Source of the DNA: an uncultured Lachnospiraceae bacterium
GTDB taxonomy: Bacteria; Bacillota; Clostridia; Lachnospirales; Lachnospiraceae
Direction: 5' to 3'
NCBI GenBank assembly: GCA_944380095.1
Contig: CALWGP010000009.1
Span: 1 to 45,142 of the forward strand
DNA length: 45,142 bases
In this document: in pieces, positions 3,001 to 38,535 of the stretch
How the letters are laid out: every line of letters starts with the position of its first letter
Numbering within the stretch: position 1 is the first letter of the stretch
Made by a program: the position numbers and the translations under genes
Notes under the pieces: model-generated
What the model was told of the DNA's origin: nothing
Seen by the model: only the letters and a program-made list of their open reading frames with translations
Databases searched by the model: none

Positions 3001-6000
3001 TCCGGTGCGGGGCAGGTCCGAAATGGTCACCGTGCCCCCTGCGGTTACGCGATAGGTATTTGTCCCGTATGGGGTCAAAGCGCCGTCATCGTCCCGATAA
3101 TAAAGGGTAAACTGCGCAGTAAGTTCGTTGTTGACCTGTTCGGTCATACTGCTTAAACCGGGGCCGTAGAACTTCTTGGTCAGTGCAATACTGCCGTTGC
3201 GGTCGTTTTTCATGGTGATTTTATACGGATCGCTTCCGGAATTGCCCAGATAATCGGTCAGCGTAAACGTTTCGGAATAAGCGTAGTTTTCCCCCCCTTC
3301 ACTTGTTTCTCCTTCCGCGTGCCAGCCCTCCGGCAGGGTTTCCCGGAACCGGTATGAAATCGCAGTGACGCCGTCGGATTCATAGACCGGAAGCTGCAAA
3401 GAAATGGTTCCGTCATTGCCCAAAGAAAGGATCTTATCTCCTCCCTGACCGGCTGCCAGGGAAGTCCAGCTTCCGCCGCTTTCCTTTCTCTGGATTTCAA
3501 AAGCATCCGCAAACACCCCGTAATTGGAGGCATTTACATTCTCATACTTCTCATCCTCCTCGCTATTGACATTAAACACCTGTTTTTGCAGGCGCACAGG
3601 CGCCAGGTTCTCTTTGTTGGTGCGCTCTACTGTTACAGCAGGGTTATCCTTGGAAACAACACACTCTGTAACGGCATCGTCCGGGATGTATCCTTCCGGC
3701 GCAGAAATCTCTTTTACGTAGTAGGTTCCATATTCCAGCCGGCCAAAGACCGCGTTGCCATCGCTTTCCGTTGTCACGGCGGCAAGAGGGTCGCCGGTAC
3801 AGTTTTGCGTTTCATACAGGCCAAATTCTGCCCCTTCCAGCGCGGAAGGAGTCCCGTTGGAAAGCCCCGTTTTGGTGATTTCGATTTTTCCCAGGGTTTC
3901 CCGGTTGTAAAAAGTAAGGGTTTCGTCCTCCCCGGCCGCGATGGCAACTGTTTTGTCATCCGCATTGTAGGTCCCGCCGGTGACTTTCTCCGTATTGTCC
4001 GGGCAGGTAATCTCATTTACCGTATAGGTGCCCGGATCCAGCCACACTTCCACCGTCCCGGTAAGACTGTCCGGATCCGTTTCGGGATTGTAGGTGATTT
4101 TCCCATTTGCGCCCGTCATCGGCGTATAAACGCCGCTTTCGCTGTTGTAGAAATACAGGGTAGGCGCCTTGCCTGTTTCATCCGTAATTTGATAAACCAC
4201 CGCACCGCTGACCGGATCGTTGAAATAATTGGCCCAGATATAGGGAACCTGTCTGTCTGTATCGTCATAGCCAATCAGCTCTTTTCCCAGGACCAGCTTC
4301 GCCGGGCGGGTCACTTCCCCGGCCTCCTGGTCGGCGGTGGCCTCCGACGTTCTTTCAACGCTTTCCCCTTTCAGCGTATAGGAGATTTTGGCAGTGTTTT
4401 TTACCTCCAGCGGCGCCTGGTCCTTATCGTAATACTGGGCGATGAACTTCGCATAGGGATAAACCACTTCCACCAGGTACGTGGAATAATAGGGCGCATT
4501 CCCTGCCACATCCGAAAGGCTGTGGCTTTCGCAGGTATCCACGGGAAGCGAAATGATTTCCCCGCTTTCGGATACGCTGATCGGTTCCTCATCTCCAAAC
4601 TGGGGCGTAACGGTGATGCTCTCTGCCTCAATCGGCTGACCTTCCCGGTCCAATACCATAGGGGTTTCCGTCAGCGAAAGGCTGCCTGTAAAGGGCACCC
4701 GTCCGGGACGGCTGTACGTCTCCGCATTGGAGACGATCTGCCCTTCATTTTCCAGACCTGCTTCCAGCCGGAAGGTAACGGTCACAGATTCCTTATCTTC
4801 ATCCGCCTCCGCCTTGACCGCGGTCTTTTCCACAATCCAGTTGTCGTCCGTCGTGGAAACCAGATTATCCAGCTCACTTTCGGTTTTTACTGATTTTTCG
4901 TAAGTCTTGCCGTCTTTAACGGCGTCCGGATCCATCCGGTCACGAATGGTAAATTCAGTCCGGATTTCCGCGATGTCCTCTCCCAGCGTAAAGAGATATC
5001 CCGTTTCCAGACTGCCGTTTCCCTCCACCTTCAGGTTTACCAGAAAAGAACCGGTGGCGTCCGCAGAGGCATCGATCCGGTCATTGAGCACCAGCGTCCA
5101 GTCATTGGGGCCGCCCTGCGCAGGCGCGATCACATCCGTCACGTTCTGCAGAGTTCCTTCCGCGCCTTCCACCACGGACAGACCTTCCGGAAGATGCAGA
5201 ATAACTGCCGAATCGTCATAGCTGTCAAACAGCGGCTCATTATGTTCGCCGTAATTGTAATAGGCCGCCGATTTGAAAGTATAATCCACTTGAAAAGTGA
5301 TGGTTTCTCCGGCTTTAACAGACGTGTCGCTCTGGTTTGCAACGGTCACTATGGCTGTCTCCATGGTACCGTTTTCCCCATAATATTCCTCTGCTGCCTC
5401 TGCGAAGGTCTTTCCGTCCGCCTCCAGCAGGTTCATCCGCCTGATGGCAGGAACGCTGCAGCTGACCGCATACAGGCTGAAATGATCCGTTGCAAAGGCA
5501 GCGTACTGCTTCCCGTCTTCTTCCACCCGGGAGGCGTCCAGGGCCGTAACGCCCCCTTCTTCGTCCGCATACCAGGCATCCAGTTCCCCGTTCCAGTCCT
5601 CCGGCACGGGAATCAGCACTTCCACGCTTCCTGACGGGGAGGCGCCGCCCAAATCGATATCGTAAAAGGCAATCCGTTCCAAAGCCATTCCCTCCGCCGC
5701 CAGGGCTTCCTCGATTAAGCCGCGGGCAGCTTCCGGATACCCGGCATCGCCTTCCTCTCTCTCAGACACATTCAGGGAAACCTCTGCCGGGAGGGCGCCG
5801 TCTTTCCAGCGCAGCAAAACACCGCTGCCCTCATCCGCCAGGACGCCTTCCGGCTTTTGTTCTCCGGATTCGGTCCGGGTTTCCGTCTCTGTTTCTGTCT
5901 CCGTCTCTGTTTCCGTCTCTGTTTCCGTTTCCGTCTCTGTTTCCGTCTCTGTTTCCGTTTCCGTCTCTGTTTCCGTCTCTGTTTCCGTTTCTGTCTCTGT

Positions 6001-6393
6001 TTCTTTTTCCGTCCCGGCTTCCGTTTCCGCAGGGGTTTCCTCTTCAGGGGATTCTTCTTCGGACGAAGATTCCTCTTCCGATGTGGACTGCTCCTGCGTG
6101 GAAGATTCCTCTTCCGACACAGACTGCTCCTGCGTGGAAGATTCCTCCTCCGACACGGACTGCTCCTGCGTGGAAGATTCCTCTTCCGACACGGACTGCT
6201 CCTGCGTGGAAGATTCCTCTTCCGACACGGACTGTTCCTGCGTGGAAGATTCCTCTTCCGACACGGACTGCTCCTGTGTGGAAATTTCCTCAGGCGTCGT
6301 TTCCGTCGCAGCCGCAAAGCTTTGATCCGTCAGAAACATCGACAGGGCCAGCAGCACGGCCAAACATCTTGTCCAAGGTTTTCTTCTCTTCAT
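1..6393 (-). CDS. Giant Cna-B/SpaA-type repeat surface adhesin, C-terminus beyond window
   Basis: An unbroken frame runs from an ATG at 6393 to base 1 (2131 codons, no stop), so the gene is cut by the left edge. The start has AGGGAGG 11 nt upstream. The protein opens with a signal peptide (MKRRKPWTR, a hydrophobic stretch, then SFAAA). Six 12-residue Ser/Glu/Gln repeats and about twenty Thr-Glu dipeptides follow, then a large ectodomain. Several Cna-B (SpaA-like) modules are recognisable by their closing strands: YYVKEISAPEGYIP, YYLVETSSPQGYEA, YLVEETVTPKGYTD, YEIREISAPNGYTA and similar. Such modules form rigid stalks, often with isopeptide cross-links, in Gram-positive adhesins and pilins. 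A sortase LPXTG tail would be expected beyond the window but cannot be seen. The ligand is unknown. The gene lies 61 bp after a small HTH gene on the same strand, so co-transcription is likely. Confidence 0.9.
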   Translation of the reverse strand, partial: MKRRKPWTRCLAVLLALSMFLTDQSFAAATETTPEEISTQEQSVSEEESSTQEQSVSEEESSTQEQSVSEEESSTQEQSVSEEESSTQEQSVSEEESSTQEQSTSEEESSSEEESPEEETPAETEAGTEKETETETETETETETETETETETETETETETETETETETETETRTESGEQKPEGVLADEGSGVLLRWKDGALPAEVSLNVSEREEGDAGYPEAARGLIEEALAAEGMALERIAFYDIDLGGASPSGSVEVLIPVPEDWNGELDAWYADEEGGVTALDASRVEEDGKQYAAFATDHFSLYAVSCSVPAIRRMNLLEADGKTFAEAAEEYYGENGTMETAIVTVANQSDTSVKAGETITFQVDYTFKSAAYYNYGEHNEPLFDSYDDSAVILHLPEGLSVVEGAEGTLQNVTDVIAPAQGGPNDWTLVLNDRIDASADATGSFLVNLKVEGNGSLETGYLFTLGEDIAEIRTEFTIRDRMDPDAVKDGKTYEKSVKTESELDNLVSTTDDNWIVEKTAVKAEADEDKESVTVTFRLEAGLENEGQIVSNAETYSRPGRVPFTGSLSLTETPMVLDREGQPIEAESITVTPQFGDEEPISVSESGEIISLPVDTCESHSLSDVAGNAPYYSTYLVEVVYPYAKFIAQYYDKDQAPLEVKNTAKISYTLKGESVERTSEATADQEAGEVTRPAKLVLGKELIGYDDTDRQVPYIWANYFNDPVSGAVVYQITDETGKAPTLYFYNSESGVYTPMTGANGKITYNPETDPDSLTGTVEVWLDPGTYTVNEITCPDNTEKVTGGTYNADDKTVAIAAGEDETLTFYNRETLGKIEITKTGLSNGTPSALEGAEFGLYETQNCTGDPLAAVTTESDGNAVFGRLEYGTYYVKEISAPEGYIPDDAVTECVVSKDNPAVTVERTNKENLAPVRLQKQVFNVNSEEDEKYENVNASNYGVFADAFEIQRKESGGSWTSLAAGQGGDKILSLGNDGTISLQLPVYESDGVTAISYRFRETLPEGWHAEGETSEGGENYAYSETFTLTDYLGNSGSDPYKITMKNDRNGSIALTKKFYGPGLSSMTEQVNNELTAQFTLYYRDDDGALTPYGTNTYRVTAGGTVTISDLPRTGTNGADRNYYLVETSSPQGYEASATLGGTNAAQKTELTIGTEKKTAFGPFNFNTALGSGGIVLEQSVTVSNVEQKVPVAVKKVNSYDGKTFVPGASYTVYDYTDDQKGEVVVSQQQITSASGSLLSLEPGKKYLVEETVTPKGYTDVTESDEKIVDLTDVESVDTDTLVETVTLSNRPDPAFRVNKIKQDAAGKTTPLTGVTFEVYEKTGENFVRVSGYDKEPLTLTAGTDLQVPAGIYYLKEVVPEGNPNGILDPSAHPELYTEQGETTTEGFFFGPYEVVQQQNVNTYGPIVNYANTGAVTVTKYRAVETGDPVPLAGAVIGIYRKGKTEPVQEATSAATTGFASFTGLPIYDENGQKIQYEIREISAPNGYTASGETLMVELTPGQTATTGTDGKELELINQPVTSLEVTKFYYNKWEYTFTQKAYWLPGAVIALYEQLEDGSYQLKEVQTTTTDGKVKFENLAQETEYAAVEVCVPQGDAYRYLEPIDKTDYLMPDYLAEGGTPEDLPQNISADAMDSYYHVTKEANHTGRPQGARTAEMTDVENWAQLQIKKYVIEEDGHPGITEGDERLINNAQFTLYQEVLPSETAADAELSFDQNNPGKYTVVGSYSSGTLYNKEGERMDGWFGTGILKAADNVVYWLVETNAGIGASIREENVVTLIKREGTQYTNKTTYDHTDGRGTTRYTPTEVMEYRDNQVTKEAFENHPEYGGSGERFATIRIVKWAGGRTDNGDKVYAYTPLGNATFDVYLADSQGNLYDRLDTMTTGLDNDFTAEGPLTAWASSKAFSWKELQAKYQDTLSKELYEDIFTETESGAFVRVAIRESDAPMGYMLESRNTYYMYLFFRKGETTGDGGEQTTETFNDAYYVKGDQTGAENDVPLAETQTGTVWAFYPTMEGEGGYVPVTPANTPEDVDTTGQQYRLVNWPVDTQAVTVQKYGYEVQQDTLGMTSEELDQYYATGAHGGRVPLQVTMRLERLENGKWEAYGYDSGTNGVF
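5876..6005 (-). repeat. Hexanucleotide Thr-Glu simple repeat in adhesin
   Basis: Near-perfect 6-bp units (plus-strand forms tccgtc, tctgtt, tccgtt) encode about twenty Thr-Glu dipeptides, forming an extended, highly acidic linker just after the 12-residue repeats. Units of six bases keep frame when they are gained or lost, so length could vary between strains without inactivating the gene. Confidence 0.9.
6084..6299 (-). repeat. Six 36-bp tandem repeats in adhesin N-terminus
   Basis: Six tandem 36-bp units, each encoding STQEQSVSEEES with only a few silent or single-base differences, sit directly after the signal peptide. The unit length is a multiple of three. The near-identity at DNA level suggests recent expansion or recombination-driven homogenisation. 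Confidence 0.93.
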
Positions 6394-6454: not shown

Positions 6455-6667
6455 TCAGTCGTCCTTCTGGGGGAAAAGATAGGAAAGATCGTGCTCCGGA
6501 AACAGGACGTCCCGGATCGCAACGGCTTCCCCATAGGTCCAGTCCTGCTTCCCTTCCAGTTTCGCTGCGGCTTCTTTTTCATCCTCTTCCAGCAAAAACG
6601 CAATTTCCGGACAGGTAATCCCTTTTTTCCCCATTTCCAAGATCAAGTTGCTGTTATCCGTCTTCAT
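6455..6667 (-). CDS. Small XRE/Cro-like HTH protein upstream of adhesin
   Basis: A 70-residue protein. The ATG at 6667 is preferred over the ATG at 6682 because GGGGGAG lies 6 nt before it. The sequence has the pattern of short phage-repressor-like proteins: a degenerate HTH (GITCPEIAFLLEEDEKEAAAK), then the typical KLEGKQDWTYGEAVAIRDVL segment and an F/L-rich end (SYLFPQ). It is probably a DNA-binding regulator. It lies on the same strand as the giant adhesin and 61 bp upstream, with one SigA promoter before both, so it may autoregulate and control the adhesin. The partner DNA site is inferred (inverted repeat 6708-6745). An alternative is a remnant of a mobile-element repressor. Confidence 0.65.
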   Translation of the reverse strand: MKTDNSNLILEMGKKGITCPEIAFLLEEDEKEAAAKLEGKQDWTYGEAVAIRDVLFPEHDLSYLFPQKDD

Positions 6668-6707
6668 GGCGTCTCCCCCCATCTTATATCCGTCGCGCCG
6701 ATAGTGC

Positions 6708-6756
6708 GATACATCGTAATTATTTATATAGTATTACATTGTATCATAATTGTCAA
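6708..6756 (-). promoter_or_regulatory. SigA promoter with overlapping inverted repeat (putative operator)
   Basis: On the minus strand, TTGACA (6751-6756), a 17-bp spacer and TACTAT (6728-6733) form a good promoter for the small HTH gene and the adhesin. An imperfect 13-bp inverted repeat (GATACATCGTAAT at 6708-6720, ATTACATTGTATC at 6733-6745; 11 of 13 match) flanks the -10, as expected for a repressor site. Binding by either nearby HTH protein is inference. Confidence 0.65.
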
Positions 6757-6830
6757 GATAATCTCTGTTACCGTTACGTACCTATGCGGAAAATCCATGT
6801 AATTCCATAGTGTATCGGCACGAAAAATGC

Positions 6831-6836
6831 TATACT
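6831..6836 (+). promoter_or_regulatory. Extended -10 promoter for XRE regulator
   Basis: TGC-TATACT is an extended -10 element 40 bp before the XRE start. No good -35 is seen at 16-18 bp. Confidence 0.45.
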
Positions 6837-6876
6837 AAAACAATGGGGGGTATTCCAAAAGGCAGGAGTTTACGGC

Positions 6877-7194
6877 ATGAAAAGAAATGAAATACTCAAA
6901 GAGCTGATGCGACAACAGGGGATCAGCACAGCGGAAATGTCCCGGGAAACAGGGATTCCCTATACGACCTTAAAATCCATCTTCGACAACGGAGTGGAAA
7001 AATCCAGCTACTGTTCCATCTGTTCCGCCCTCGGGATCACTACGGACCAGCTGGAAAACAGGGCCGGGAAATATTCCGGAAAACAGGGGCAAAACCTTGG
7101 TTTTTCGCTGGAAATCGGGGATTTTTCCGAAAAGGAAATGGAACAGCTGCGACACTATATCAGTTACCTTCGTTTTCTGAGGAAACAAGAATGA
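6877..7194 (+). CDS. XRE-family HTH transcriptional regulator
   Basis: A 105-residue protein with an N-terminal Cro/C1-type HTH (residues about 3-60: ILKELMRQQGISTAEMSRETGIPYTTLKSIF and a second helical part ending ALGITTDQL). A short C-terminal tail (FSEKEMEQLRHYISYLRFL) looks helical and could dimerise. GGCAGGAG precedes the ATG by about 10 nt. It is divergent from the HTH-adhesin unit and shares a 209-bp intergenic region holding an inverted repeat, so it may control both directions (inference). Its stop codon lies inside the left arm of a 36-bp hairpin. It has no sensor domain, so the signal is unknown. Confidence 0.85.
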   Translation: MKRNEILKELMRQQGISTAEMSRETGIPYTTLKSIFDNGVEKSSYCSICSALGITTDQLENRAGKYSGKQGQNLGFSLEIGDFSEKEMEQLRHYISYLRFLRKQE

Positions 7195-7263
7195 CCGGAC
7201 AAAGTGCCGCGCCAAAGAAGACCCGTTGGGTTTTCTTTGGCGCGGCACTTTGTCCGGTCATTC
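7189..7263. terminator. Very long hairpin between convergent genes, probable terminator
   Basis: Bases 7189-7224 pair with 7228-7263 to give a 36-bp stem with a single G-U wobble (7220:7232) and a 3-nt loop (gtt). The left arm overlaps the last codons and stop of the XRE gene. A short T run (atttttg) follows on the plus strand, which supports termination of the XRE transcript. The stem is much longer than an ordinary intrinsic terminator. Confidence 0.75.
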
Positions 7264-7325
7264 ATTTTTGACTTATACGGTCAATTATTGAGGTTTTCGT
7301 TTGGAACGGCATCCGGGACAGCAGT

Positions 7326-7577
7326 TCAGTCTTGCTGCCCGTCCTCTTCATAAATAATCCGCCTGCTGACCACCCCGATCTCTTCCAGGGCGTTGATCAT
7401 CCGGTATACCGTGGCGATTCCGATTCCTTCATCCACTTTGGAAGCCCGGTAAAAGATTTCCTTACAGCTGGAACAGCGGTTCTCAAGAATGATATCCAAA
7501 AGCTCACGCCTTTGCTTTGTGATCCGGCAGCCGTTATCCTTAAGCTTTTGAATGATTTCTTCCTTCTTTTTTTCCAT
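7326..7577 (-). CDS. Fur-family regulator reduced to its DNA-binding domain
   Basis: An 83-residue protein starting MEKKKEEIIQKLKDNGCRIT. The ATG at 7577 has AGGGG 8 nt upstream; an ATG at 7595 in the same frame is possible. The sequence matches the winged-helix half of Fur/PerR proteins (KQRRELLDIILE, CKEIFYRA, GIGIATVYRMINALEEIGVV). It stops shortly after the wing (RRIIYEEDGQQD). Family members are usually about 130-150 residues and carry the dimerisation domain with His/Cys metal sites, which is absent here. The only Cys pair is CSSC near residue 31. It is the last gene of the extended feo operon, 25 bp after the HMA-domain gene. How it would sense metal or dimerise is unclear; it could be a truncated remnant. 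Confidence 0.8.
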   Translation of the reverse strand: MEKKKEEIIQKLKDNGCRITKQRRELLDIILENRCSSCKEIFYRASKVDEGIGIATVYRMINALEEIGVVSRRIIYEEDGQQD

Positions 7578-7602
7578 ATCGGTTTCCCCTGTCATGCCCT
7601 GT

Positions 7603-7971
7603 TCATCCCTCGATGGAAACGACGTCAAAACCCGCCTTTTGCACCGCTTCTTTGAGCCGTCCGTTATCCAGTTTCCTGTCGTAGGAAACCACTGCGGTTT
7701 CTTTTTTCAGGCTCACTTTTGCGGACGCCCCGTCGATTTTGTTGATCGCCTTTGTCACGCTCTCGGCGCAGCGGTCGCAGTGCATTCCGGAAATACGGAC
7801 GGTTTTTGTCCCGATGACGGGGCCGGAAAGCTTTTTTCCCCCTGCTGCCTTCACTGCGCTTCCGCCTCCGCCTCCGCAGCAGGGGCCTTCTCCCTTAAAA
7901 TGTTTGACCGTGCCCTTCAGGGCAAATCCCAGCAGCACGATCACCACCAATACCACAATCAGATCAGCCAT
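7603..7971 (-). CDS. Membrane-anchored heavy-metal-associated (HMA) domain protein
   Basis: A 122-residue protein. The start at 7971 (MADLIVVLVVIVLLGF) has AGGGGGA about 10 nt upstream; the longer frame to 8028 overlaps the preceding gene and lacks this signal. One N-terminal membrane segment (residues 2-18) is followed by a short Cys/Gly stretch (PCCGGGGG) and a linker. A ferredoxin-like HMA domain (about residues 56-122) carries the metal-binding motif GMHCDRC and ends VVSIEG. HMA domains bind Cu(I), Zn and similar soft metals in chaperones and P-type ATPases. Its position downstream of feoB and a FeoB-associated Cys-rich gene suggests a role at the membrane in metal handling connected with iron uptake; the metal is not shown. 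Confidence 0.85.
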   Translation of the reverse strand: MADLIVVLVVIVLLGFALKGTVKHFKGEGPCCGGGGGSAVKAAGGKKLSGPVIGTKTVRISGMHCDRCAESVTKAINKIDGASAKVSLKKETAVVSYDRKLDNGRLKEAVQKAGFDVVSIEG

Positions 7972-7985
7972 TTCGTCTTTTCCCC

Positions 7986-8129
7986 CTATTCTTCCCGGTC
8001 TGTCCGGTCCTTTCGCCTTTCCCGCCATTTCTTAACCAGCTGCACAAGCTGGTAAACCGACATCCCCACAATATAAATGGCAATAAAAAGCCCGAAGGCA
8101 TAAAACATGGAACCCGTTGAATCTCCCAT
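7986..8129 (-). CDS. 47-residue single-pass membrane protein in feo operon
   Basis: Starting at the ATG at 8129 (AAAGGAG 10 nt upstream), this encodes MGDSTGSMFYAFG, one transmembrane helix (about residues 9-30, LFIAIYIVGMSVYQLVQLV) and a strongly charged tail (KKWRERRKDRTDREE). The tail predicts an N-out, C-in orientation. It begins 5 bp after the FeoB-associated Cys-rich gene ends and is followed 14 bp later by the HMA gene, so it is well inside the operon. I do not recognise the family. It could be an accessory subunit of the FeoB complex. Confidence 0.7.
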   Translation of the reverse strand: MGDSTGSMFYAFGLFIAIYIVGMSVYQLVQLVKKWRERRKDRTDREE

Positions 8130-8134
8130 ATCCG

Positions 8135-8329
8135 TCAGCTCCTTTTTTCTCCCGGTCCGTCTTTCCCTTTCGGGTTTTGGCAGGAGGCCAGGCAGCCGCT
8201 TTTGCCGCAGCCGCTGCATCCGGCGCAGCCTGCGCAGACGCCTCCCAGTTTCTTTTGTTTATGGCGGCGGACCAGGACGAAAATACAATAGGCTGCCACC
8301 AGCGTCAGAATAATCAAATCCGCAATCAT
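8135..8329 (-). CDS. FeoB-associated Cys-rich membrane protein
   Basis: A 64-residue protein; the start MIADLIILTLVAAYCIFVLV at 8329 has AAGGG 8 nt upstream. An N-terminal membrane helix is followed by basic residues (RRHKQKK) and a Cys cluster with the spacing C-x2-C-x2-C-x2-C-x4-C-x3-C (CAGCAGCSGCGKSGCLASC), then a hydrophilic tail. This is the architecture of the FeoB-associated Cys-rich family often found directly after feoB in Firmicutes. Its role is not established; delivery or binding of iron at the cytoplasmic face is a common proposal. It lies 83 bp after feoB. Confidence 0.88.
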   Translation of the reverse strand: MIADLIILTLVAAYCIFVLVRRHKQKKLGGVCAGCAGCSGCGKSGCLASCQNPKGKDGPGEKRS

Positions 8330-8412
8330 CTTCCAAACCCTTTCTGCGGCGGAAAGCCGGATACCTTTGCGCACCCGGCCTTTCCGTTTTTTGGTCTTAT
8401 TTTAACCCATCC

Positions 8413-10596
8413 TTACGCTGCCTGTACAGACCGTTTGGAATATACCTTCGAATTTTTGTAAGGATCAGGCCTTACCAGAAGCACTACCAGTACAAGGGCC
8501 AGCGCAATGCCCACTGCGGTTCCTGCGCCAAACGCCCCGCCCATGGCAAAGGAGCCGATCTGGTATACGCACAGGCAAACCACGTAGGCGAAAACATTCT
8601 GGAACAGGATGGCAAACCAGAACCATTTCCTGGACTGCATCTGCTGGGCCATAGTGGCGATGGCCGCCAGGCACGGGGAATCCAGCAGGTTAAACAAAAG
8701 GAAGGAGAACGCCGCCACAGAAGTAGGGAACCATCCCTGCACTGCCGCCGCCACGGTAACCGCATCTTCCGTATCGCCGGTTACATTGGCCAGCACGCCC
8801 ATGGTGGAAACGATGGCTTCCTTTGCGGTAAATCCGGACAGGGACGCTGCCACAGGCTGCCATGCGCCAAATCCCAGAGGCGCAAAAACCGGTGCGATGA
8901 AACCGCCGATGGCCGCCAGCAGGCTGTGGGAACTGTCTTCCACCATACCGAAACCGCCTTCGCCAAAACCGAACCCTCCCAAAAACCACATGACCACGCA
9001 TGCCAAGAAAAGGATCGTCCCCGCTTTGATGATGAAGCCTTTCAGTCTTTCCCAGACGTGCAGCAGCACCGTTTTCGCGGAAGGAATGTGGTACTGGGGC
9101 AGTTCCATGACAAAGGGGGCAGGCTTTCCGGAGAAAGGTTTTGTTTTCTTTAAGATAATGGCGGATACCAGCACTGCGATGATCCCGATAAAATACATCG
9201 CCGGGGCGATCAGTCCGCCCGCTTCATAGCTGCCCGTGGCATAGCTTGCCATAACCCCTCCCATCAGGGCGATTACCGGCAGCTTCGCGCCGCAGGGGAT
9301 GAAAGTGGCCGTCATAATGGTCAGCCTTCTGTCGTTGTCCTGCTCGATGGTTTTGGAAGCCATAATGCCCGGGATGCCGCAGCCGGAAGAGATCAGCAGC
9401 GGGATAAAACTTTTTCCCGACAGTCCGAAATGCCGGAATACCCGGTCCATGACGAAAGCGATACGGACCATATAGCCGCAGTCTTCCAGCAAAGACAGAA
9501 ACAGGAAGAGAATCGCCATCTGGGGAACGAAGCCCAGCACCGCGCCCACGCCGCCGATGATGCCGTCCACCACCAGGCTCTGCACCAGGCTGCCGGTTCC
9601 GATCGCCGTCAAAAATCCGCTTGCCGCGTCCTGGACGGCAACCACAAACACGTCGTTGGTCCAGTCTGTCACAAAAGTGCCGATGGTGGTGACGGATATG
9701 TAGTAAACCACAAACATCACGGCCACAAAGATAGGGATTCCCAGAATCCGGTTTGTCACAACCTGGTCGATTCTGTCGGAAACGGTCATTTTCTCTTTGC
9801 CCTTTTTCACCGTGGTGCCGACGATCTTTTGAATGAATTGATAGCGTTCATCAGTCACGATGCTTTCCATATCGTCGTCGTGCTCTTTTTCCAGTTCCTT
9901 GCGCAGTCCGGCCACTGTTTCCCCGGCGGGGGCGGACAGCTTCATGCTTTCCGCTACCCGGCTGTCATTCTCCAGAAGCTTCACCGCGTACCATCTCTTT
10001 TTTTCCGGCGTCACAGAGGCAGGAAGTACCTCTTTTACTTTCTCCACCGCTTCTTCCAGTTTTCCGGAAAAAATCTCAGCGGGAAGCTTTGCTTCCTTTT
10101 TGTGCGCCGTGCGCACCGCCTCGTCGATGAGCGCGTCCAGGCCGCTTTGTTTGAGGGCGGACGTTTCGATAATGGGGCAGCCAAGCAGCATGGACAGCCG
10201 CTTCGTATCGATCCTGATATTTCGCTTCGCCAAAAGATCCGCCATATTCAAAGCGATGACCACCGGTACGCCGGTTTCGATCAGCTGGGTGGTCAGATAC
10301 AGATTTCTTTCAATATTGGTGGCGTCCACCAGGTTTACAATCACATCCGGGTTTTCTTTGAGCAGATAGTCCCGGCTCACCACTTCCTCCAGCGTATAGG
10401 GGGAAAGGGAATAAATACCGGGAAGGTCGGTAACGATGATCTCTTCGTTTTTCCGCTTTCCCTTCAGCCTGCCTTCCTTTTTTTCCACCGTAACGCCCGG
10501 CCAGTTGCCCACATACTGATTGGCGCCGGTGAGGGCGTTGAACATTGTCGTCTTCCCGCAGTTGGGATTGCCGGCAAGTGCAATTTTGATTGCCAT
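8413..10596 (-). CDS. feoB: Ferrous iron transporter FeoB (first copy, divergent pore motif)
   Basis: A 727-residue GTPase-coupled Fe(II) permease. The N-terminal G domain has G1 GNPNCGKTT (9-17), G3 DLPG, G4 NMAD and G5 SALK, then the helical GDI-like region, then a polytopic C-terminal half with two gate regions. The pore motif reads SSGCGIPGIMASKTIE (about residue 400) where the second FeoB in this window has GFGCTVPAIMATR, so the two copies belong to different FeoB subgroups. The C-terminus ends in basic residues (KVYSKRSVQAA). It follows two feoA genes, with 13 bp to the nearer, and precedes four small accessory genes, all under the promoter at 11171-11202. Manganese as an alternative substrate cannot be excluded. 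Confidence 0.96.
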   Translation of the reverse strand: MAIKIALAGNPNCGKTTMFNALTGANQYVGNWPGVTVEKKEGRLKGKRKNEEIIVTDLPGIYSLSPYTLEEVVSRDYLLKENPDVIVNLVDATNIERNLYLTTQLIETGVPVVIALNMADLLAKRNIRIDTKRLSMLLGCPIIETSALKQSGLDALIDEAVRTAHKKEAKLPAEIFSGKLEEAVEKVKEVLPASVTPEKKRWYAVKLLENDSRVAESMKLSAPAGETVAGLRKELEKEHDDDMESIVTDERYQFIQKIVGTTVKKGKEKMTVSDRIDQVVTNRILGIPIFVAVMFVVYYISVTTIGTFVTDWTNDVFVVAVQDAASGFLTAIGTGSLVQSLVVDGIIGGVGAVLGFVPQMAILFLFLSLLEDCGYMVRIAFVMDRVFRHFGLSGKSFIPLLISSGCGIPGIMASKTIEQDNDRRLTIMTATFIPCGAKLPVIALMGGVMASYATGSYEAGGLIAPAMYFIGIIAVLVSAIILKKTKPFSGKPAPFVMELPQYHIPSAKTVLLHVWERLKGFIIKAGTILFLACVVMWFLGGFGFGEGGFGMVEDSSHSLLAAIGGFIAPVFAPLGFGAWQPVAASLSGFTAKEAIVSTMGVLANVTGDTEDAVTVAAAVQGWFPTSVAAFSFLLFNLLDSPCLAAIATMAQQMQSRKWFWFAILFQNVFAYVVCLCVYQIGSFAMGGAFGAGTAVGIALALVLVVLLVRPDPYKNSKVYSKRSVQAA

Positions 10597-10609
10597 TTTC
10601 TTTTCCTCC

Positions 10610-10828
10610 TTATTTCACCTGCACGCACTGCGCGTCGTTTTTCCTTACGGAAAGCTCGTAGCCCCTTACCGTAATTTCCACAGGATCTCCAAGAGGCGCA
10701 ACCTTTCTGATGTACAACTCGCTTCCCTTTGTGATCCCCATATCCATAATGCGGCGTTTGTAAGCGCTGTCTCCCTCGATCTTTGTTACCACGACCGTGC
10801 TTCCGACTTTTGCTTCACCCAGGGTCAT
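10610..10828 (-). CDS. feoA: FeoA-domain protein
   Basis: A 72-residue SH3-like FeoA protein: MTLGEAKVGSTVVVTKIEG, then the family core RRIMDMGITKGSELYIRKVAPLGDPVEITVRGYELSVRKNDA. FeoA is a small cytosolic partner thought to modulate the FeoB GTPase. It lies 13 bp upstream of feoB, so this is the copy most likely dedicated to FeoB. Conserved Gly and Pro positions of the fold are present. Confidence 0.93.
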   Translation of the reverse strand: MTLGEAKVGSTVVVTKIEGDSAYKRRIMDMGITKGSELYIRKVAPLGDPVEITVRGYELSVRKNDAQCVQVK

Positions 10829-10883
10829 CTTTCACTTCTCCTTCCTCTCCTCATTCTTTCTATTCATACAACAGGACACATCT

Positions 10884-11096
10884 TCATACCAGGATGTGTC
10901 TTGCCATATCCGCATTGATCGCCACCCGGGAATCTTTCACGTTCACAATCACGTTCCCGCCGATTTCCGAAAGAACCGTGATCTTCGTTCCCGAAACGAA
11001 ACCGAGATTTTCCAGAAATCTCCTTGTCTCCTCATTTCCTCCCACTTTGCGGATCGTGCTTACTTCCCCGCATCCTGTCATCGTCAACGGCATCAT
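10884..11096 (-). CDS. feoA: FeoA-domain protein, first gene of feo operon
   Basis: A 70-residue SH3-like protein. The ATG at 11096 (MMPLTMTG) is chosen because AGAGG lies 6 nt upstream; the longer frame to 11123 has no such signal. The core ETRRFLENLGFVSGTKITVLSEIGGNVIVNVKDSRVAINADMA fits FeoA and the SH3 domains of DtxR regulators. It differs strongly from the second FeoA, so the tandem pair is not a recent duplication. It is first behind the operator-bearing promoter. Confidence 0.9.
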   Translation of the reverse strand: MMPLTMTGCGEVSTIRKVGGNEETRRFLENLGFVSGTKITVLSEIGGNVIVNVKDSRVAINADMARHILV

Positions 11097-11170
11097 ACTT
11101 ATCCTCTTTTCTCTGTTTGGCATAACGGGCGTGTTTCAAACCGTCCACAGGTATCTGCTTTCTACATTTT

Positions 11171-11311: not shown

Positions 11312-12892
11312 TTACAGCGCTTCAAATTTTAAAGCGCCTTCTTTCATCAGCCATCTCCATGTCAGCATCCAAAGCCCTGCAAACAGCGCGGTCATGGCCA
11401 GGCAAAATACCTCCAGGCCCGTTTTTCTTCCGATCAGGACGTACAGTCCCGCCGCCGCGCCTGCAATCAGCATAGAACCCAGGCAGGCGATGATCGCCGA
11501 AGCGGACTGTTTGATCACTACGGTATCGTTATCAGCGTCCAGCCTGGGAAAGCACAGATTGACCGAAAGGCCTGCCGCCGCCAGAAAGCCCGTCATGGAC
11601 AGACAGGCGAGGGCCATACAGGCTGCCCGGAACGGGGCGATCCCAAGCGTCAGGGAAGCCAAGGCCGTAAACAGCAGGATGCAGGGCCAGGCCAGCGTCA
11701 GATTCAGGCATATTTTGGCTCCAAACAGCACGGAAGGCTTTAAGGGCGCTTCTTTGAGCAGCCAGACAGTCCTTCCTTCCAGGCTGACGGAAACTGCGGA
11801 AGGATAAATCATGGACAGTAAAAGGGCCATGCAGCCCAGGACAAGGGGGTCTGTCGTCCCGTGTCCTGCAATCTCCAAAAGCGTCGTTGGCAGTTCCTTT
11901 GCCACTGCCATCCAGACGCCGGCCGCCAGCAGGAGCACGGCCCCCATCCCCGCATTGAGCAGGTAGGAAGGAGTGGAAAAGAAACGGCTGATCTCCTTTT
12001 TGAGCATGGCGGCAAAAGGCCCCTGCGCCTTTTGGGCCTTCAGGCAAAAATCCGTCCGCACCAGGCGGGACTTAAGGCCCGAAAGGATCGCCTGATATCG
12101 GAAGGAAAAAAGCCAGGTAATCCCCAAAAAGGGCAGGACGCACAGGCACAGGCTGCAAAGCAGCGCCCCCCAGTCCCCGTCCATCCCCCTGCCCAGCAGG
12201 CCGATGGGCAAAAGCCAGGTCATAAACAGCCTCTGCGCCTCTTTTCGGTGATTCAGCAAAAGGGTCCCGATCTGATTGACCTGCATGCTCCCGGCCATCA
12301 GCGCCAAAAACAGGGCAATGGAGATCAGATTGGACAACAGCGCCCTGTGTCTCATCCTGGCGCCGGCCCAGGCGATCACATACCCGCCCAGGCAGGCCAG
12401 CGCGGACGGCAGGAAGGGGACAAACAGGATGGAAAGAACCAGGCGCAAAAAATAGGAAGGATCCGTCCGTCCTGCGAAAACAAAGCCCGCCGCTCCCGCA
12501 GGAATCATCCACAGTCCCACGAAAAGGAGGTTTTCCAGATAAAGGGCGCTCATCCTGGAAAGCACGACGCAAAAGGCGCTCACGGGCATGGACAGGATAA
12601 AGTCCGTATCCTTCCCCCCGAATACAATGCCCCCGGCCGCAAAAAAGGTGAAGATCAGGCTCACCGCTACCGCCAGCAGCGTCATCATCGGGATCAAAAA
12701 TTCCAACACACCCGCTTCTTCAAGAAGTTCCCCCATCAGCCAGCTGTACAGGCCGGAAATATAAAGTGCCAGAAAGGCCATCAGCCCTATGGCGCCCGCC
12801 ATCGTAACATTTTTCTTTCTTCCCTGTCCGGCGGCAAAGGTATACAGCATCTGCCGGAAACTGATCCCGATCAGCAGCCTTAACTCACGCAT
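11312..12892 (-). CDS. ABC-2 type exporter permease
   Basis: A 526-residue polytopic membrane protein. The start at 12892 (MRELRLLIGISFRQML) overlaps the stop of the ATPase gene by 8 bp (ATGCGTGA) with GGAGGGAGG just upstream, so the two are translationally coupled. About a dozen hydrophobic segments are spread through the protein (for example GAIGLMAFLALYISGLYSW and ILSMPVSAFCVVLSRMSALYL). The pattern fits two-component Gram-positive ABC exporters with a large permease. The substrate is unknown; related pairs export peptides or antimicrobials or take part in stress responses, which the sequence does not decide. Confidence 0.8.
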   Translation of the reverse strand: MRELRLLIGISFRQMLYTFAAGQGRKKNVTMAGAIGLMAFLALYISGLYSWLMGELLEEAGVLEFLIPMMTLLAVAVSLIFTFFAAGGIVFGGKDTDFILSMPVSAFCVVLSRMSALYLENLLFVGLWMIPAGAAGFVFAGRTDPSYFLRLVLSILFVPFLPSALACLGGYVIAWAGARMRHRALLSNLISIALFLALMAGSMQVNQIGTLLLNHRKEAQRLFMTWLLPIGLLGRGMDGDWGALLCSLCLCVLPFLGITWLFSFRYQAILSGLKSRLVRTDFCLKAQKAQGPFAAMLKKEISRFFSTPSYLLNAGMGAVLLLAAGVWMAVAKELPTTLLEIAGHGTTDPLVLGCMALLLSMIYPSAVSVSLEGRTVWLLKEAPLKPSVLFGAKICLNLTLAWPCILLFTALASLTLGIAPFRAACMALACLSMTGFLAAAGLSVNLCFPRLDADNDTVVIKQSASAIIACLGSMLIAGAAAGLYVLIGRKTGLEVFCLAMTALFAGLWMLTWRWLMKEGALKFEAL

Positions 12893-13610
12893 CCTGTCCT
12901 CCCTCCTGTGCCAGTTCCATGAAAACGGTTTCCAGACTTTCTTTTCCCACAATCTGGCCGGTAGGGCCTTCTTCTACCAGCTTTCCGTCCCGGATAATGG
13001 CGATCCGGTCGCACAGTTTTTCCGCCACCTCCAGCACATGGGTGGAAAACAGCACGGAACCGCCCTGCGAACAGATTTCCTTTAAAAACTGCTTCATCAC
13101 AAAAGCAGCTTGCGGATCCAGCCCTACGAAAGGCTCGTCCAAGACCAAAAGTTTCGGGGCGCGGATCAGGGCGGAAATCAGGGCCAGCTTCTGTTTCATC
13201 CCATGGCTGTATCCGGAAACCGGGCTTCCCAAAACCTTCGTCATGCCAAAGGCGTCCGCATACCTGCCGATCCGCTGCGTCCTTACGTCGGCGGGCAGCC
13301 TGTAGAGATCCGCCACAAATTTCAGGTACCGGATCCCGGTCATAAAGTCATACAGCTCCGGGTTGTCCGGCAAAAATGCCGTGACCTGTTTGGCTTTTAC
13401 CGGCTCTTTGCGGATATCATATCCGTCTATCGCAATCGTGCCTTCCCGGAACTCCAAAATTCCGGCCACACAGCGCAGCGTGGTGGTTTTCCCCGCGCCG
13501 TTGTGCCCGATAAACCCCGTGATCTGTCCGTCCGGGACCGTAAAGGTTAGGCTGTCCACCGCTTTTTTTCGCCCGTGATAAGATTTGGAAAAATCTCTGA
13601 TTTCCAGCAT
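12885..13610 (-). CDS. ABC transporter ATP-binding protein
   Basis: A 241-residue ATPase with Walker A GHNGAGKTT (about 35-43), Q-loop region FLPDNPELYDF, signature SGYSHGMKQKLAL, Walker B LLVLDEPFVGLD and H-loop STHVLEVAE. It powers the adjacent permease. The sequence resembles ATPases of drug or peptide exporters of the CcmA/NatA/EcsA group. It is first in its operon behind a strong promoter (13675-13703). No sensor kinase or GntR-type regulator gene is adjacent. Confidence 0.93.
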   Translation of the reverse strand: MLEIRDFSKSYHGRKKAVDSLTFTVPDGQITGFIGHNGAGKTTTLRCVAGILEFREGTIAIDGYDIRKEPVKAKQVTAFLPDNPELYDFMTGIRYLKFVADLYRLPADVRTQRIGRYADAFGMTKVLGSPVSGYSHGMKQKLALISALIRAPKLLVLDEPFVGLDPQAAFVMKQFLKEICSQGGSVLFSTHVLEVAEKLCDRIAIIRDGKLVEEGPTGQIVGKESLETVFMELAQEGGQDA

Positions 13611-38490: not shown

Positions 38491-38535
38491 GTTTCTTATA
38501 CGATAGGAAATGCAATTTCCTATCGTATAAGAAAC
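38491..38535. repeat. Perfect 21-bp inverted repeat with 3-nt loop
   Basis: Bases 38491-38511 are the exact reverse complement of 38515-38535, separated by gca. The arms are AT-rich (they begin GTTTCTTATACG), unlike the GC-rich terminator that adjoins it. No T run follows on either side. Confidence 0.85.

Follow-up and report, generated by a model that had tools for sequence, protein, structure and literature searches.

In the window (the whole stretch of DNA analysed, 45,142 nucleotides), a gene for an XRE-type regulator of 105 aa (6877-7194, + strand; Pfam HTH_26) runs towards a gene for a Fur-family regulator on the - strand (7326-7628 for the ORF as listed, whose true start may be internal), together with the rest of a putative feo operon (7603-11123, - strand) comprising an HMA / FeoB-associated ORF, FeoB and two small ORFs, the latter resembling FeoA by eye only. 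Between these convergent genes lies a hairpin at 7189-7263, which starts 3 nt ahead of the stop codon of XRE and leaves 62 nt to that of the Fur-like gene; the initial annotation had placed it at exactly these positions. On its other side, the XRE gene is divergent from a 75-aa ORF (6455-6682, - strand) with no Pfam match, and this pair is kept in the sister species (G001) and in another genome of the genus (G010) despite differing neighbours. The 75-aa protein occurs in three of the 13 genus genomes, the same three that carry a close XRE, and the two genes likely form a functional pair. Positions 5857-6325 hold low-complexity tandem repeats which, judged by eye, apparently encode a repetitive protein on the - strand.

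The arms of the hairpin (7189-7224 and 7228-7263, 36 nt each) enclose a GTT loop (7225-7227) and are reverse complements of each other except for a single pair, G7220-T7232, which is a G-U pair in the RNA of the + strand and an A-C mismatch in that of the - strand; 35 of the 36 pairs are thus Watson-Crick. As described before, the stop codon of the XRE gene (TGA, 7192-7194) is part of the structure and sits in the 5' arm. Folded as RNA with short flanks, the hairpin reaches -72.7 kcal/mol on the + strand and -67.2 kcal/mol on the - strand, and none of 200 dinucleotide shuffles was as stable on either strand. It is a stable, GC-rich hairpin with a short loop near a gene end, as expected of a terminator. 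On the + strand the stem is directly followed by ATTTTTGA, containing the U-run ATTTTT (7264-7269), as a terminator for the XRE gene would call for, and on the - strand by TTGTTTCC (7181-7188), a weak run with five T in eight positions.

How unusual such a structure is was assessed by scanning 845,142 of the 2,624,177 bases of the genome, in two samples of which the first (445,142 bases) includes the window, for hairpins with loops of at most 12 nt, scoring +1 for each Watson-Crick pair and -3 for each mismatch with a cut-off score of 12. Altogether 45 hairpins scored at least 12 (23 in the first sample and 22 in the second), and the hairpin at 7189-7263 is the longest of them, with a score of 32 followed by 24, 24, 21 and 19; a first-order Markov control, confined to the first sample, contained no such hairpin. 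Best scores elsewhere were 23 in G001 (324,634 bases), 20 in G010 (220,000 bases), 16 in G007 (180,000 bases) and 21 in 20 other members of the family (298,698 bases). The hairpin is real and far beyond chance; among strong hairpins, which grade into one another, it occupies the far end without clearly forming a class of its own. Counting crude ORFs of at least 80 aa as genes, and setting aside 12 of the 45 hairpins that lie inside ORFs and two at contig ends, we found 14 of the 31 long hairpins with both neighbours defined at convergent junctions, which make up 121 of all 713 junctions and 10,432 of 47,122 intergenic bases. This excess is what bidirectional terminators would give.

Matches to XRE were found in five of the 13 genus genomes (its own included), the close ones in G001 (71% identical) and G010 (51%), and at E <=0.001 in 39 of 397 family genomes, where the best match beyond the genus is 30% identical; a search of genome contigs for wider relatives returned two distant ones. 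Directly 3' of the orthologous XRE gene, G001 carries a shorter, imperfect and interrupted hairpin, GCCGCGCCGGCGAAAATCC[TTTC]GGATTCTTTCCGGCGCGGC, followed on the opposite strand by TGTTTTT. An eight-base core is the same in both hairpins, and the comparison places a conserved terminator core, GCCGCGCC...GGCGCGGC, at 7206-7246 of the window. When 195 genomes were searched with GCCGCGCC-N(8-30)-GGCGCGGC, matches appeared in 16 of them, with one place each in the genome of the window and in G001, both 3' of XRE; a reversed control pattern also matched several genomes, so that the pattern alone is not specific. The G010 relative of XRE lacks this hairpin and is followed by an unrelated one of 8 bp and then TTTTTT on the opposite strand. 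As far as seen, conservation of the hairpin thus seems to reach only G001.

Aligning the hairpin with that of G001 gave 26 pairs, of which 15 are unchanged, five are changed on both sides, two on one side and four are unpaired in one of the sequences; compensatory change is thus present, albeit in two sequences only. For the same two sequences, 92.3% of the aligned cells are paired, as against 41-52% for slid partners, and five or more double changes were reached by 12 of 500 shuffles. The element being palindromic, the choice of strand in this alignment is partly arbitrary (the gene-consistent orientation scores 28, the other 21), and the outer flanks can be aligned in more than one way, as GGTC...ATTC also occurs 3' of the core in G001. 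The genes facing the hairpin are different in G001: there we found an ORF resembling, by eye, a FeoB-associated Cys-rich protein as well as an ABC permease that, on visual comparison, is related to the one at 11312-12952 of the window, and the Fur-like gene is on another contig. The genes on the facing side would accordingly have changed without separating the hairpin from XRE, and the hairpin looks like an old feature of the XRE gene end.

Taking these data together, we consider it highly probable that the hairpin is a bidirectional intrinsic (Rho-independent) terminator, serving XRE on the + strand and the Fur-like gene and feo operon on the - strand, with a conserved core and a stem lengthened in this lineage, likely by template switching. 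A polymerase arriving from XRE would make the 36-bp stem and then AUUUUU, where it should release the transcript, while one coming from the feo side would make the complementary stem followed by UUGUUUCC, for which reason termination should be weaker on that side. The core of this terminator would predate the split from G001. Among the three possibilities raised in the initial annotation, a structure blocking read-through both ways is the one best supported, by the convergent genes, by a U-run on one side with a weaker one on the other, and by the hairpin kept at this place in G001. Against the terminator reading count this weak run on the - strand, the different short hairpin of G010 and the fact that a terminator scan did not list the hairpin at 7189-7263. 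The same holds for its stem-loop of 75 nt, which exceeds the limit of 59 nt that a Term-seq study adopted from TransTermHP (PMC12207403); terminator finders bound to such a limit would miss it.

With the bidirectional terminators described for TransTermHP (PMC1852404), the hairpin shares a GC-rich stem, a short loop, the position between tail-to-tail genes and a T-rich run after the stem, clear here on the + strand and weak on the - strand; it differs from them in its 36 pairs and in the stop codon within the base of its stem. The earlier remark that the stem goes beyond what termination needs can be upheld, since the mode in Neisseria, the genus with the longest stems among the six organisms shown in the same source, is 11, and in the Term-seq study the species medians of hairpin length, measured in stem nucleotides, range over 20-35 nt (PMC12207403). 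For terminators of Bacillus cereus, evolution through compensatory changes has been reported (PMC5381666). In kind, the hairpin is most likely ordinary, a long bidirectional terminator and not a novel type of RNA or a mobile element. It represents a clear case, matched by an imperfect hairpin in a sister species, of how a terminator stem may outgrow the needs of termination.

Regarding its length and near-perfection, the comparison with G001 suggests a lineage-specific extension, most likely caused by the template-switch correction of a quasi-palindrome: a switch of template during replication would have made an imperfect palindrome almost perfect. Consistent with this origin, the outer 17 pairs contain no mismatch in the genome of the window and the hairpin of G001 is shorter and interrupted. 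According to one proposal, a single template-switching event can generate a perfect stem or restore one (PMC8794818), and quasi-palindromes have been described as hot spots of template-switch mutation (PMC7202029). With the stems treated in these two papers, the hairpin has in common its near-perfect arms, hard to reach via single substitutions, and the existence of an imperfect version in a relative, seen here at the same site in one, G001. It should be noted that two orthologous sequences do not fix the direction of the extension, its nature as a single event, the arm copied or the ancestral state. Were several strains of this species compared, the site could reveal template switching at work in the formation of bacterial RNA stems.

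Other explanations have to be weighed against the terminator. The hairpin could give rise to a small double-stranded RNA of some 70-75 nt, as its precursor or as the stable species itself, which RNase III would process and which would regulate XRE or feo expression, as the initial annotation had envisaged in part. RNase III does cut long perfect duplexes, and the hairpin is very stable on both strands; however, a search of positions 6600-8100 against Rfam yielded six matches, all below the gathering score (five to mir-, microRNA precursor, models and the sixth to STnc250 with E 0.59), and thus no known structured RNA family, nothing else in the genome is complementary to the 22-nt core at up to three mismatches, and the stem of G001 differs in sequence outside the GC core. 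We therefore regard a processed RNA as very unlikely. Slightly less credible still is an assembly or amplification artefact mirroring one arm: palindromes can arise as chimeras and the genome is a draft of 208 contigs, but the palindrome is internal to a 45-kb contig, is short enough for a single read and has flanks that are not mirrored beyond it, and G001 independently carries a hairpin at the same site.

Termination could also depend on translation of XRE and so link it to the control of iron uptake, a variant to which we give very little credence. As the stem has the stop codon at its base, a ribosome finishing translation of the XRE mRNA would sit over the lowest pairs, beside the U-run; if it followed closely, the polymerase would read through and produce an antisense RNA to the Fur-like gene, and poor translation of XRE would give a clean stop.

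Least probable of all is the remnant of a palindromic mobile element of MITE or REP type, likewise proposed initially, which the long palindrome and the absence of full-length matches from all 194 relatives would favour, but against which stand the single copy in the 2.62 Mb genome, the retention of the core at the corresponding gene end of G001 and the lack of a flanking duplication when inspected by eye. The search for further copies of the arm, recommended at the outset, returned no other genomic copy. The sole match in a relative, in G124, covers 25 nt around the loop only (inspected by eye), a 14-mer of the arm found once in L135 is taken as chance, and the 19-nt core gave no match to viral contigs. 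A MITE/REP-like palindromic element would be expected in several copies, and the search of this genome does not bear this out.

Repeated hairpins of other kinds were observed alongside. In G001, three near-identical hairpins with 27-nt arms and an 11-nt loop, starting with AGGCACATG (L066:13363-13427, L070:132-196 and L056:18966-19030), constitute a repeated palindromic element. Another core, TACGATAGGAAAT...ATTTCCTATCGTA or GCGACAGGAAAT...ATTTCCTGTCGC with a variable loop, recurs at 38491-38535 of the window and at L140:199-239, L125:1699-1737, L144:13190-13230 and L056:16116-16156. The pattern AGGAAATN(1-8)ATTTCCTRTCGNA matches seven of 61 genomes, with four places in the genome of the window, nine in G002 and four in G015, and its control gave one match in all. 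The TACGATAGGAAAT...ATTTCCTATCGTA hairpins may represent terminators or palindromic repeats of a dispersed family and, with their GCGACAGGAAAT...ATTTCCTGTCGC variant, may merit separate attention.
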